IMG/VR virus record: IMGVR_UViG_3300042541_000726
Coordinates: 1 to 32,173 of that record
Strand: one strand, 5' to 3'
DNA length: 32,173 nucleotides
From: a virus
Numbering within the stretch: position 1 is the stretch's first letter; each line of letters starts with the position of its first letter. The notes under the pieces are model-generated. The model saw only the letters and a program-made list of their open reading frames with translations, had not been told where the DNA came from and did no database searches. Positions 4,083 through 32,173 of the stretch are shown here, piece after piece. The position numbers were made by a program, and so were the translations under genes.

Positions 4083-4826
4083 TTATTCTATACACTCGCA
4101 CGCTGGAGAATGCCAATCTTCAATTTCCCAATCAATTTTTAATTGCGCTCGGTCCGAGTTTATTAATTCTGTCCAACTTTTATTTCTCCCTAATCCTTTA
4201 ATTTCAGAAAGTTTTGTTGCGTTTTTTTCCATATTAATAATACGCTCTTTTAATTTATCGGATAATTTTAAAATCTCATTTTTTTTCATATTTGGACAAA
4301 AGAAACACGAACTTTTACCCGGCAAAGTTAAACCGACATTTTCAATAGCTTCAATACATTTTTCTCTATTCCAACCCCATTCGATTAAAGGATAATAATT
4401 TTCAAAATTCTCATTTGGATTTTCCTTTATTCGTCTTTCTTCGCCAGCATCAAAACCAACCCACATTTGTATTTTTTCATCAGGGTAATTTGATTTAATA
4501 TATTTCTCAATTGGTGTTATTTTAAATTTTTGGCTGCAAGTTTTCCAACCGAAAGCAATTGGGGGAATAGTATTATTATTTAAACAATCTTGCTCTAATG
4601 TTAATTCGTCCCCGTGTTTTGTCTTATACCTCAATGTTTTTATTTGCGGGAAATTTTTATTTATTAGCCAAGCGTTTAATTCGTCAATAAATTGATATGT
4701 ATGCGGGTGTTCGCCGCCTGTATCAGCAAATAGTATTTCATCGGGGATTAAACCATATTTAACCATATTAACTAAAATTGCGGTTGAGTTTGTACCACCG
4801 CCAAAAGAAACAATTATTTTTTTCAT
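4083..4826 (-). CDS. PP-loop ATPase of the PAPS reductase/adenine nucleotide hydrolase superfamily
   Basis: This 247-residue protein has an N-terminal pyrophosphate-binding loop, SFGGGTNSTA (7-16), a divergent form of the usual SGGKDST. LFADTGGEH (32-40) follows, where the family has its second nucleotide-contact segment. Cys97 (KTCSQK), Cys174 and Cys177 (SCFFCP) and a C-terminal CEC (243-245) could bind a metal or Fe-S cluster, as in sulfur-transfer members. Relatives in phages are often labelled phosphoadenosine phosphosulfate reductase. Roles in base or tRNA thiolation, or in DNA modification, are possible but unproven. It lies between the DnaB helicase gene and small hypotheticals. Confidence 0.75.
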   Translation of the reverse strand: MKKIIVSFGGGTNSTAILVNMVKYGLIPDEILFADTGGEHPHTYQFIDELNAWLINKNFPQIKTLRYKTKHGDELTLEQDCLNNNTIPPIAFGWKTCSQKFKITPIEKYIKSNYPDEKIQMWVGFDAGEERRIKENPNENFENYYPLIEWGWNREKCIEAIENVGLTLPGKSSCFFCPNMKKNEILKLSDKLKERIINMEKNATKLSEIKGLGRNKSWTELINSDRAQLKIDWEIEDWHSPACECIE

Positions 4827-12718: not shown

Positions 12719-12720
12719 GT

Positions 12721-12739
12721 GGGCGGTTGTTAGCCGCCC
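12721..12739 (-). other. GGGCGG/CCGCCC intergenic hairpin (copy 1)
   Basis: Minus strand GGGCGG (12739-12734), a 7-base loop and CCGCCC (12726-12721) form a 6-bp GC stem after the first small early gene, with no T-run. It has the same stem sequence and same placement as 10496-10513. Confidence 0.7.
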
Positions 12740-12746
12740 GATTTAA

Positions 12747-13020: not shown

Positions 13021-13692
13021 TTATTTTGCCGAAGCAAGCCCGAAACCTAATAAAGCCCCGAAACCGATTTTAAAAGCCGTTGTTTCGAACCATTTTTTGC
13101 GGTCTTTAATATATATATTACTCATTCCTTGCAGTTGAATGTTCGGATTGTCAATATGTAATCGAACCACCTGATCGGATTTTTTGAACAAATGATTAAA
13201 TAAGCCGTTTCGCAGCGTATCCCCTACTGAATAGGTAAATTGTGCGGGCGCAATAAGCGAATCGATTACAAGCGTTCCATTGGACAAAATTTGTCCATTT
13301 ATAGAAAACCACCTTTCACCCTTTGAAAAGGAAACAGGGACCCGCAAATAATTAACCGAATCAATTTTTTCAGTTTCCGCGATCGGGATTTCCGTTTTAA
13401 TAACGTACCGCGTTTTGAATTGAATTATCTCTTTCGGGTTTTTTATTTTCATTACCCGGAGCGCAAATATTTCTTGTTCGTTTTTTTGGATTTCCGCGCT
13501 TTTAATTTTAATCACTAAATTTTGACTATAAATAAAGCTGGAATCCTGAAGCCGTGTTTTTTTAAAATCGTTTATTTCGGAATCTTGTTTTTTTAGTTCG
13601 GAAATGTATTCGCGGTTTAAACTGCAACTGCGAAATAATAACACAATTAAAATAAAACAAGCGATCAAAACGAAATTTATTCCCTTATACAT
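13021..13692 (-). CDS. Membrane-anchored spanin-like/structural accessory protein
   Basis: This 223-residue protein has an N-terminal membrane segment (INFVLIACFILIVLLF, residues 5-20) with Cys23 just after it (not a clean lipobox). A charged coiled-coil stretch follows (LKKQDSEINDFKKTRLQDSS and on), then a beta-rich domain (RWFSINGQILSNGTLVIDS). The C-terminus is hydrophobic and glycine-rich (IGFGALLGFGLASAK). An anchored coiled coil with a periplasmic domain at the end of a lysis cluster fits an inner-membrane spanin analogue, but this is inference. It is the last gene of the late operon and overlaps its neighbour by 8 bases. Confidence 0.5.
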   Translation of the reverse strand: MYKGINFVLIACFILIVLLFRSCSLNREYISELKKQDSEINDFKKTRLQDSSFIYSQNLVIKIKSAEIQKNEQEIFALRVMKIKNPKEIIQFKTRYVIKTEIPIAETEKIDSVNYLRVPVSFSKGERWFSINGQILSNGTLVIDSLIAPAQFTYSVGDTLRNGLFNHLFKKSDQVVRLHIDNPNIQLQGMSNIYIKDRKKWFETTAFKIGFGALLGFGLASAK

Positions 13693-13882
13693 TAACCTGA
13701 GTTATTAATAATAGTTGAATCCAAAATTTAGAAAATTCAGCTTTGTTTCTGAGATTGTTTTCTAAAACCTTTTTAGCAAAACTTAAAGGCATTTCCTTTT
13801 CCATTACGTAGTTAGAAACAACCATTATTAATCGTTCGTCCGCTTCTAAATCGGTTTTCGGTAAATATGTTTCAAGCTCCAT
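13685..13882 (-). CDS. 65-residue hypothetical protein
   Basis: This small acidic-to-neutral helical protein (METYLPKTDLEADERLIM-like start after MEL) ends with a hydrophobic stretch FWIQLLLITQVNV. The last ~13 residues might associate with membrane but are too short for a firm transmembrane call. It starts 4 bases after the PAS-HisKA gene and overlaps the spanin-like gene by 8 bases. It therefore belongs to the same message. Function unknown. Confidence 0.5.
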   Translation of the reverse strand: MELETYLPKTDLEADERLIMVVSNYVMEKEMPLSFAKKVLENNLRNKAEFSKFWIQLLLITQVNV

Positions 13883-13886
13883 TATT

Positions 13887-14456
13887 TTAAATTTGCCGCG
13901 TGGCTTTTTTAACTAAGTTATGAATTGATTTATCGAGCTGCTCAACTGATAAGTTAACCATTTCAAGCAATTTAATATTTTCTTCGGTTGTTTCGGAAAA
14001 ATCTTTTTCAATTAACATTTTAACAAGCCCCGCAATGCTGGTCAAAGGTTGGCGTAATTCGTGCGAAAGCATAAATCTAAAATCCTCTAAAAGTTGCTTT
14101 TGCTTTTCGTATTCGTGGGATGTTATCGAAGTAACATCGGTAATAGGTAACCCGACAAAATGCAAGGAATTTAAAATAAAATAAATGTTCCAAAGGTTCC
14201 AGCGCATCGACCCGTTTTTTTGTTTTGTCTTAGCATAAAATCGAATTGGTAACGGCGCGCGTTCCTTCGCTCTTTTCACCGAATCGGAAAACTCGCCAAA
14301 ATCGGAATTATCCGAAATCATTTCGGAAACATTTTTCGGTTTTATGTGGCTGGAATATTCTTTAAACAAATCATTACTTCCCACAATAACCCCGCTTTCA
14401 TCGGTTACCACGTAAAATAAATCGATTGAATTTGTTAGAATATATCTCGCGCTCAT
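13887..14456 (-). CDS. PAS-HisKA protein lacking the kinase ATPase domain
   Basis: This 189-residue soluble protein has a PAS-like sensor domain at about 8-112 (LFYVVTDESGVIVGSND, then KNGSMRWNLWNIYFI and HFVGLPITDVT). The dimerisation/phosphoacceptor helix of a histidine kinase follows, with H-box FMLSHELRQPLTSIAGL and phosphoacceptor His132. The second DHp helix is present (ENIKLLEMVNLSVEQLDKSI). The protein then stops: no N, G1 or G2 boxes of the ATPase domain exist, and the following gene does not supply them. It could be phosphorylated by, dimerise with, or titrate a host kinase. It sits in the late lysis cluster. Confidence 0.85.
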   Translation of the reverse strand: MSARYILTNSIDLFYVVTDESGVIVGSNDLFKEYSSHIKPKNVSEMISDNSDFGEFSDSVKRAKERAPLPIRFYAKTKQKNGSMRWNLWNIYFILNSLHFVGLPITDVTSITSHEYEKQKQLLEDFRFMLSHELRQPLTSIAGLVKMLIEKDFSETTEENIKLLEMVNLSVEQLDKSIHNLVKKATRQI

Positions 14457-14502: not shown

Positions 14503-14979
14503 TTATGATTTCAATGCAAAGTTAATTTTTGAAAACATTGTAAACCACGAAGTAAAAGAGTTTAACAAATAAACCATAGTGCAAACAAGCATGAAACCGA
14601 ATTCAATACCCATACAAACCCCGTTTAAGTCGTTTTTAACGCTTATCGTTTTGTTTTGGGGATGTAATACTATTAATTCATTTGCGCTTCGTGTATCGCC
14701 TTGTTTTAAGTGTTTCAAATCATTCAGTTTTAATGTATCGGAATATCGAATAATTACTTTCGGGATTTCGAAATTATAATTAATAGCGGTTGTTTCTTTT
14801 TCAGTAAAAAATATTTGCCCTGATTCCGCAACAAAATAATTTTTATCTAAATCAAATGTTTGATTCGAATAAACATTTTGTAAATCGGAAATATAACCGT
14901 GCGAAATATCCGAAAAATGAAAAGATAAAAGCGTATCGTTAGAAATTTGAACGATTGAATCGCGTGTTTCCTCAATCAT
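14503..14979 (-). CDS. C-tail-anchored membrane protein of the lysis cluster
   Basis: This 158-residue protein has no signal peptide and a mostly beta-type hydrophilic domain at 1-120. A single strongly hydrophobic segment lies near the C-terminus (IEFGFMLVCTMVYLLNSF onward, about residues 124-148), followed by a short basic tail. Its start overlaps the holin candidate's stop by 8 bases. Placement suggests a lysis regulator (for example antiholin) or spanin-type partner, but no family is recognised. Confidence 0.5.
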   Translation of the reverse strand: MIEETRDSIVQISNDTLLSFHFSDISHGYISDLQNVYSNQTFDLDKNYFVAESGQIFFTEKETTAINYNFEIPKVIIRYSDTLKLNDLKHLKQGDTRSANELIVLHPQNKTISVKNDLNGVCMGIEFGFMLVCTMVYLLNSFTSWFTMFSKINFALKS

Positions 14980-15178
14980 TTTGTACCCCCTTTTCTTTTG
15001 GCTTCCAAACCCATTTCAACGTTATAACCGCACCAATAATATAAGCAAATGTTTCTTTGTCGATTTGCTTTAAAAAGAATAACCAAAAGCCCGTTATAAT
15101 TGCCATCGACCCGATACAATAGTTCCAATATTCAAAAATAATATTTAAAACTGTTCTGAGTTTGCGCGGTTCAATCAT
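14972..15178 (-). CDS. Holin candidate, two membrane segments
   Basis: This 68-residue protein has two hydrophobic helices (WNYCIGSMAIITGFWLFFL, about 18-36, and TFAYIIGAVITLKWVW, about 43-58) and a charged C-terminal tail (KPKEKGVQND). Size, two-helix topology and a basic tail fit a class II/III-type holin that would release the lysozyme encoded at 16001-16450. Its start overlaps the secreted-protein gene by 8 bases. No sequence family was recognised, so the call rests on topology and context. Confidence 0.6.
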   Translation of the reverse strand: MIEPRKLRTVLNIIFEYWNYCIGSMAIITGFWLFFLKQIDKETFAYIIGAVITLKWVWKPKEKGVQND

Positions 15179-15947
15179 TTCGAACTATTTTAAAAGGTGA
15201 ATCGCTCCCAACATTGCGCCCCAAAAGATCAAAATATGTTTCAATGCTTTTTTTTTTATTTCTGCATTCAAAATATGCAATTTCTGAAAGCGTTTCGTTT
15301 CCGTTTAAATCAATTTCGCGAATAGCCAAATAATTAATTCCGTTTTCGAAATTATCAGTTTGAATTTGATAAACGCTTTGATTCGAATTGTTTTCAATTT
15401 GCGGCTGGATTGTTTCCGCTATATCCCATCGAATTAAATCTTTCGAAATTATAAGTTCGAAACGATCCGTATTCGTATTTGAACACGTTTTAAATTGCAC
15501 GTTCAGGAATTCCGCACCCATTACCGCACTAAGCCCGCAAAATTCAACCGCTAAAGGAGAAATGATTAACGAGTAAGGGCAAAAGTTATCGATTAATTCG
15601 GACGAAATATCAAAACAAATTACAACCGTGTCAATTCCCGCATCGATTAAATTCCCGTATCCCGTGAAAATACAATCCGAATTATATTGTCGAATCTCAT
15701 TGACTAATAACGGACTTCCAAACGGGCTTGAATAACTAAAACGCGCCTGTTGAGTAGCTAAAATCTGTTTAACTTTTACGCAAATTGTCGTGTCGGTAAT
15801 ATTTGCCGAAATACATTGACCCGTGTTGTTTAAAGAGTTAAAGGAAGGGAAACCCCAAAAAGATTTTACAACTTTTGCCGAATCGCATTGAGCGTTTCCG
15901 TAGTTTACAAAAGTTAATAAGGCGAATAAAGTAATTAGGTTTTTCAT
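15171..15947 (-). CDS. Secreted protein resembling type IX secretion cargo of Flavobacteriia
   Basis: This 258-residue protein has a Sec signal peptide (MKNLITLFALLTFVNYGNAQ, cleavage near residue 19-20). A cysteine-rich region (about 21-155) follows. A fibronectin-III-like module comes next, with the order FELIISKDLIRWD, then YQIQTDNFENGINYLAIRE and IDLNGNETLS. That is the layout typical of Flavobacteriia extracellular proteins just before their C-terminal sorting domain. The end, KSIETYFDLLGRNVGSDSPF, resembles the first strand of a type A T9SS sorting domain but is cut short. It lies between the lysozyme and holin genes. It may act at the cell surface. Confidence 0.65.
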   Translation of the reverse strand: MKNLITLFALLTFVNYGNAQCDSAKVVKSFWGFPSFNSLNNTGQCISANITDTTICVKVKQILATQQARFSYSSPFGSPLLVNEIRQYNSDCIFTGYGNLIDAGIDTVVICFDISSELIDNFCPYSLIISPLAVEFCGLSAVMGAEFLNVQFKTCSNTNTDRFELIISKDLIRWDIAETIQPQIENNSNQSVYQIQTDNFENGINYLAIREIDLNGNETLSEIAYFECRNKKKSIETYFDLLGRNVGSDSPFKIVRND

Positions 15948-16000: not shown

Positions 16001-16450
16001 TTACATAAAATAAAGTTTTGCTTCGGCTTTTCTTCGGCGTACTAATCCGGGTAATTTTTTACCGCCCGCGTTCACCCATTTATTGAATTCTAATTCAATT
16101 GTCGGATCGTTCGGGTTTAATTTAACTTTTTTAAATAATGTTGATTTTGCCAGCGCACCCATTCCCAAATTAAAAGCAAATGAAACAAGCGCATCAAATT
16201 GATTTTGCGTTAATGTAACATTGAAAAATAAAGCCGAAACATTTTTTTCAAAATCTTCAAGCGTTACTAAAAGTAAATCTTCGGCATCCTGAATACTTTT
16301 CAATTTATCGGTAATTTTAATCGGGCTTTTATTCGGGTAATAAGTCGAGCCGTAACCAATTGTAACAATACCCGCTGGACATTTATACGCGGTTAATTCT
16401 AAACCCTCAAAACTTTTTATTAAGTCAATTCCCGTTTGGCTCGTTTTCAT
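16001..16450 (-). CDS. T4-type lysozyme (GH24 endolysin)
   Basis: This 149-residue muramidase cleaves peptidoglycan at host lysis. The GH24 active-site region is clear: KSFEG (catalytic Glu15), then AYKCPAGIVTIGYGST with Thr30. The position of the T4 lysozyme aspartate is occupied by Cys24, as in the CPAG subgroup of phage lysozymes. The C-terminal FNKWVNAGGKKLPGLVRRRK is also family-typical. There is no signal peptide, so a holin is needed; one candidate lies two genes downstream. The start overlaps the small upstream gene by 26 bases. Confidence 0.93.
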   Translation of the reverse strand: MKTSQTGIDLIKSFEGLELTAYKCPAGIVTIGYGSTYYPNKSPIKITDKLKSIQDAEDLLLVTLEDFEKNVSALFFNVTLTQNQFDALVSFAFNLGMGALAKSTLFKKVKLNPNDPTIELEFNKWVNAGGKKLPGLVRRRKAEAKLYFM

Positions 16451-31820: not shown

Positions 31821-32173
31821 TTAATCGAGTAAAATAGTTAAACAATTTTCAAAAGTGTATTGCATTGAATCGGGATTTGTAACAGTTATTGAACGCGTCC
31901 CTATTAAAGCCGCAATATTTACCGAAATGTTTATTTGAATTTCAGTATCGGAAATAAAATCGGTTGAATTAATTGTAATTAAAGTTCCGTTTATTTCAAT
32001 CGTTGCGCCGTCAACAAAACCGCTTCCATAAATTGTAAAACTTAATGTTTGCCCCTGATAAATCGAAGTTGGTGAAATTGAACTAATAACAGGATTTGAA
32101 AAATAAAACGGCGTTTGTGGGCAAATACCGTCTTCGCCTTTTAATTTAACTTGAAATTGCAAAACAACGCCCG
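31821..32173 (-). CDS. Virion/tail protein with IPT/TIG domain, C-terminal part
   Basis: This is the continuation of the gene that starts at 535 on the left end. The frame is open to the right edge and matches the left copy through 32047-32173. The C-terminal domain runs SSISPTSIYQGQTLSFTIYG, SGFVDGATIEINGTLITI and SITVTNPDSMQYTF, a complete IPT/TIG immunoglobulin-like fold. Such domains decorate phage tails and capsids and often bind carbohydrates. An ATG at 32162 is internal (codon 130), not the true start. The domain is cut in the left copy at the edge. Confidence 0.75.
   Translation of the reverse strand, partial: GVVLQFQVKLKGEDGICPQTPFYFSNPVISSISPTSIYQGQTLSFTIYGSGFVDGATIEINGTLITINSTDFISDTEIQINISVNIAALIGTRSITVTNPDSMQYTFENCLTILLD
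32047..32173. repeat. 127-bp exact direct repeat, right copy
   Basis: This is identical to 33-159. Deleting one copy and joining gives a 32,014-bp circle in which the TIG-domain gene is continuous. The sequence just left of this copy (32015-32046) is related to, but different from, 1-32. Confidence 0.95.

Follow-up and report, generated by a model that had tools for sequence, protein, structure and literature searches.

We describe a protein that consists of a PAS domain and a DHp (HisKA) phosphoacceptor hairpin, without the ATPase (CA) domain of a histidine kinase, and that is a fixed member of a lysis cassette in uncultured phages. Its parts are known, their place is unexpected. We tentatively view the protein, at slightly less than even confidence, as a phage pseudokinase: a phosphate-accepting PAS-DHp that engages host two-component proteins during lysis. 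Here, we lay out the domain content, conservation and gene neighborhood of this protein, and weigh the other roles that it might play. The analysis started from the window (i.e. the whole 32,173-nt stretch of DNA), a 32-kb virus record with 36% GC and its main genes on the minus strand (Table 1).

The PAS-DHp reading frame of the window starts with ATG and ends with TAA, approximately where the linker to a CA domain would begin. The neighboring ORF lies 4 bases away; here, our ORF calls agree with a previous interpretation made without database searches (the sequence-only reading). Residues 129–181 score 37.5 bits with the HisKA profile (PF00512; cut-off 26.9). The N-terminal part has diverged too far for the Pfam PAS models, none of which passes on the window protein; TIGR00229 (PAS) scores 14.8 bits on residues 9–111, below its cut-off of 22.9, and the PAS_9 profile matches one of 16 relatives (E 0.009). 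A PhoR-type profile (phoR_proteo) covers both domains (residues 15–182, E 2e-9). The AlphaFold2 (AF2) model, built from a 17-sequence alignment, displays a PAS fold and a two-helix hairpin (pTM 0.75). Foldseek searches with this model return LOV-FixL type kinases as top PDB matches (4gcz, E 4.5e-7), together with many PAS/LOV domains (E range 4.5e-7 to 1e-4). By its predicted fold and the PhoR-type profile, the N-terminal part is a PAS domain, in line with the sequence-only reading.

Related genes are widespread among viral sequences. Pattern scans of IMG/VR resulted in 160, 304 or 379 matching stretches, depending on the pattern used. The fetched loci contain 193 distinct complete genes with a lowest pairwise identity of 49%, which form eight clusters at 75% identity; these loci are often near-duplicates, and counts therefore weigh clades unevenly. 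Hundreds of contigs thus carry PAS-DHp as a conserved part of the cassette; it is not the lone unusual gene of one 32-kb phage that it was initially taken for. Residues H132, E133, R135, Q136, P137, L138 and T139 are unchanged in all 193 genes, and the motif SHE[LI]RQPLT is present in every member. A search for relatives with a mutated phosphoacceptor histidine returned none (His132 in 193/193), and the proposed intact phosphoacceptor helix is borne out by the HisKA match and by strong selection. At R127, L130, R135 and L138 all six codons are used while the residue stays constant. In the window clade (13 sequences), the median dN/dS is 0.05 at a dS of ~1.2, where synonymous change is near saturation. 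Together, 193 distinct homologous genes and a dN/dS of ~0.05 in the window clade place the PAS-DHp gene beyond chance. Outside these contigs, two pattern scans of 84,980 bacterial and archaeal genomes gave no relatives (and rule out close ones only), tblastn found none among 50,697 phage records, and BLAST at E 10 returned noise and cellular TorS-like kinases only. A literature search for phage-encoded or truncated histidine kinases gave nothing relevant among the papers searched.

HATPase_c is absent (E<=1, six frames) from the window and 38 related long contigs, and Response_reg is likewise found in none of these 39, each of which has one HisKA match above cut-off. The gene indeed ends before any kinase ATPase motif, and neither the protein nor any other part of these phages provides the HATPase_c/CA domain of a functional sensor histidine kinase. 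As the phages encode neither an HATPase nor a response regulator, the host must supply any phosphate donor and acceptor. Two candidate arrangements are ruled out for these 39 contigs by the same searches: a split kinase with its ATPase domain on another phage gene, and a phage-encoded response regulator as the target. That the gene is a sequencing frameshift or the decaying remnant of a full kinase can practically be dismissed. No frameshift restoring a full kinase was found; every complete member shares one C-terminal end ([KRN]KA[AT]R[EQ][IL]), the low dN/dS and the lack of HATPase in all six frames of the 39 contigs speak against decay, and nothing was found in its favor.

Table 1. Features of the PAS-DHp gene and its lysis cassette in the window
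Feature	Position	Strand	Basis
PAS-DHp protein without ATPase domain, 189 aa	13887..14456	-	ORF, HisKA profile, AF2, Foldseek, family conservation
PAS domain (predicted), ~residues 12–110	14127..14423	-	AF2 secondary structure, Foldseek; sub-threshold TIGR00229
DHp/HisKA helical hairpin, ~residues 113–188	13893..14120	-	PF00512 on residues 129–181; helices 113–150 and 158–188 (AF2)
Phosphoacceptor His132 codon (CAC)	14061..14063	-	Read from ORF; invariant in 193 genes
Phage lysozyme (endolysin)	16001..16450	-	PF00959 135 bits; PHROG endolysin E 2e-51; 153/153 loci
Secreted-type protein, cassette insertion in a minority	15171..15947	-	18/153 loci
Holin-like small protein, two hydrophobic stretches	14972..15178	-	153/153 loci; holin by size and topology only
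Fast-evolving protein, one C-terminal TM-like stretch	14503..14979	-	148/153 loci at this place
65-aa helical partner (60-aa family)	13685..13882	-	Conserved in cassette; 4-nt gap to PAS-DHp here
Spanin-like protein: N-terminal TM, long middle, hydrophobic C-terminus	13021..13692	-	Conserved in cassette

The placement among lysis genes, already noted in the sequence-only reading, turns out to be a constant of the family. The order lysozyme, holin-like, single-TM protein, PAS-DHp, 60-aa protein and spanin-like is complete in 137 of 153 distinct loci; the remaining 16 are without one or two downstream genes or the TM protein (any contig ends counted in). The lysozyme assignment is firm, whereas holin and spanin are named from their size, their topology and weak profile matches, such as an Rz-like PHROG match of the spanin-like protein in one relative (E 0.014). 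With the latter two recognized by topology, linkage of PAS-DHp to endolysin, holin and spanin genes is conserved. A 4-nt overlap of the PAS-DHp stop with the start of the 60-aa gene, present in 128 of 148 relatives, suggests translational coupling. Loci found via the spanin-like gene, with enough upstream sequence, carry PAS-DHp in 57 of 57 cases, a supportive though not unbiased count, as the search patterns came from a four-member alignment whose members all have PAS-DHp. No cultured-phage relatives of the spanin-like gene were found by tblastn. Conservation within the cassette, measured between distant pairs, is highest for PAS-DHp (56% identity), followed by the lysozyme (53%), the 60-aa protein (40%), the spanin-like protein (38%), the holin-like protein (31%) and the TM protein (21%), for which profile searches gave no family match in the window. 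Expression of PAS-DHp would be late, judged from gene position.

Several smaller features of the cassette were observed. Positions D-x-R-L, Y, E, M-P and A are invariant in the 60-aa family, for which a three-helix structure is predicted with confidence (pLDDT 88); this fold has no PDB match, leaving an Sda-like role without support. The secreted-type protein has a C-terminus (YFDLLGRNVGSDSPFKIVRND) that by eye resembles the sorting tails of Bacteroidota type IX secretion, and no NCBIfam match. Downstream of the spanin-like gene, a 9-bp GC-rich stem-loop (12720–12740) is possibly the terminator of a late/lysis operon; a promoter/terminator scan of the DNA stayed at chance level.

By sequence comparison, one lysis cassette occurs in two phage lineages whose capsid, portal and terminase genes are unrelated. 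Five long contigs of other clades have no detectable relatives of the window's terminase large subunit, portal, capsid or protease, whereas their PAS-DHp is 54–67% and their lysozyme 53–66% identical to that of the window. DnaB (found in four of these contigs out of five) and some portions of the fiber are also common to both sides, and the five contigs have most large proteins in common with one another. A midpoint-rooted PAS-DHp tree places the window clade as sister to five sequences from the other lineage (support 0.93), by which at least one transfer of the cassette between lineages is probable. Distant relatives of the window-lineage capsid protein come almost exclusively from phages of Bacteroides and Parabacteroides, and those of the other lineage's portal-like protein from phages of Polaribacter, Bacteroides and Parabacteroides. 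On these weak similarities, the host is likely a member of the Bacteroidota, an assignment at the level of phylum only. A phage integrase was not found in 25 contigs. As to the record itself, positions 10–159 and 32024–32173, at the two ends of the window and both within one tail-type gene, have 150 bp in common (95% identity); this may reflect a complete, circularly permuted genome with strain-variant overlap, or a gene with a repeated IPT/TIG-like domain. A PAPS-reductase-like protein (4083–4826, minus strand) lies among the replication genes; its cysH-type matches are sub-threshold, and it is absent from six related contigs compared.

Cells of the likely host phylum contain proteins of similar design. 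Among plasmid records, the best match is WP_015031188 of Emticicia (Bacteroidota), a protein with PAS domains and HisKA but no CA domain, in which the match reaches the C-terminus; identity of the top plasmid match is 35% over only 94 residues. A second CA-less protein, from Bernardetia (WP_338815577), has GAF and PAS domains. Like the phage protein, these cellular proteins have one or more PAS domains and a DHp, and stop a few residues past helix 2. They differ in length (445–480 aa), in having two or more PAS/GAF domains, in their H-box (SHLLRAPL or SHEVRRPV), in sequence (~35% identity to the phage protein) and in not being linked to lysis genes. Such Bacteroidota plasmid proteins with PAS/GAF domains and a terminal DHp (L350:1448–2785 and L351:1322–2764) appear to be an uncharacterized cellular class. 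Because the nearest cellular matches found also lack the ATPase domain, the CA-less architecture is not a phage invention, and recent loss of the kinase half of a host kinase, as the sequence-only reading implied, no longer holds as its sole origin. By sequence, the phage form appears to be a short, single-PAS version of this existing architecture. Full HisKA kinases of the PAS-DHp-CA type (PhoR/PnpS-like, ThkA and the LOV-FixL chimera YF1) have the same domain order and an H-box, and resemble the phage protein in the profile match over both domains and the fold match to 4gcz; the phage protein, however, has no CA/HATPase domain, no membrane part, and Gln instead of Thr/Asn at H+4. Known phage lysis cassettes (endolysin, holin, spanin) have neighbors and an order of the same kind, and are set apart from the present one, of which a sensor protein of two-component type is a constant part.

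How could a sensor without an ATPase domain contribute to lysis? As a phage pseudokinase, the PAS-DHp dimer, itself unable to make phosphohistidine, would plug into the host two-component network late in infection. His132 could be loaded by the ATPase domain of a host kinase (in trans or in a mixed dimer) or by a phosphorylated host regulator. In this way, a host pathway would be drained, rerouted or blocked during the action of the lysis proteins; a response to envelope or energy stress is the probable target. Dimerization with proteins of the host, phosphorylation in trans, the affected pathway and the timing are what we infer; the domain content, the absence of ATPase and receiver domains, the selection on phosphotransfer residues and the fixed cassette membership are observed. 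In HisKA proteins, the acid next to the histidine is required for the kinase reaction and dispensable for phosphatase activity (PMC3510030). The invariant E133 therefore points to phosphorylation of the histidine rather than to dimerization or phosphatase activity alone. The residue for phosphatase activity is normally Thr/Asn at H+4 (PMC3510030). This position is Gln136 in all 193 genes, which makes the usual HisKA-type phosphatase activity on regulators doubtful. The invariant acid and the Gln at H+4 together favor phosphorylation of His132 by a foreign ATPase domain or by back-transfer from a regulator. Kinase-family proteins that modulate the pathway of another kinase do exist: RetS, described as a hybrid kinase, acts on GacS and illustrates that such proteins can down-regulate another kinase (PMC12189002), and a ChrS frameshift variant without an active ATPase domain alters ChrA/HrrS signaling (PMC9491836). 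Both are cellular proteins without a phage or lysis link, unlike the phage PAS-DHp. In two-hybrid assays, the heterodimer signal of truncated ChrS did not reach significance, and its histidine was dispensable (PMC9491836), a result that, by analogy, is a caution against the pseudokinase reading. The interception of a host pathway suggested by the sequence-only reading thus fits in so far as a partner kinase and a response regulator are both missing from the phages, and stays tentative in the rest.

The main rival to a host-directed pseudokinase is a role in lysis timing through partners in the cassette, which we consider rather unlikely, though it stays alive owing to the constant lysis-gene linkage and the coupled small gene. 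Here, the PAS domain or His132 phosphorylation would read the state of the host, and the DHp hairpin would relay it to a phage partner that gates the holin or spanin, most likely the coupled 60-aa helical protein or the adjoining membrane protein. The six-gene order, the 4-nt overlap, the superior conservation of PAS-DHp, its presence in all 57 spanin-found loci and the spread of the cassette over phages with unrelated virion genes are consistent with such a switch; indeed, linkage in all loci would also fit a partner inside the cassette, and in this respect counts against the host-pathway reading. However, the 60-aa protein lacks a PDB fold match, and a literature search gave no known lysis regulator of this kind among the papers searched. 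It is unlikely that the two readings combine, with a host kinase phosphorylating PAS-DHp, which then controls holin or spanin through the coupled partner, so that Bacteroidota phages time lysis via the host two-component state.

Two further roles concern host regulators or the complex itself. The DHp hairpin might bind host response regulators and dephosphorylate or sequester them, with Gln136 positioning the water. Gln136 is invariant, and amide residues act in the phosphatases CheZ, NarX and RapH (PMC3510030), but HisKA phosphatases use Thr/Asn and not Gln at this place, and the invariance of Glu133, unneeded for phosphatase activity, is left unexplained; a phosphatase or sponge is therefore quite improbable. 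We find it highly doubtful that the PAS-DHp dimer is a structural scaffold that holds a complex together while its histidine is chemically unused. Cells do have CA-less PAS-DHp proteins, and in the one from Emticicia the residue that follows the histidine is Leu and not an acid; yet in the phages the entire H-box is invariant at 49% identity with synonymous sites saturated, which is more than helix packing would be expected to require.

In summary, the best conserved gene of a cassette that spans unrelated virions encodes a sensor unable to act as a kinase. This suggests that a large number of uncultured phages, with Bacteroidota as their probable hosts, connect to host signaling or disturb it at lysis, and it makes a question concrete: does host two-component signaling set phage lysis, or is it shut down for it? 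The finding also points to the uncharacterized ATPase-less PAS-DHp proteins of the Bacteroidota. If lysis were indeed timed by phosphorylation, the lysis clock of these phages would be tied to a signal of stress or energy state in the host.
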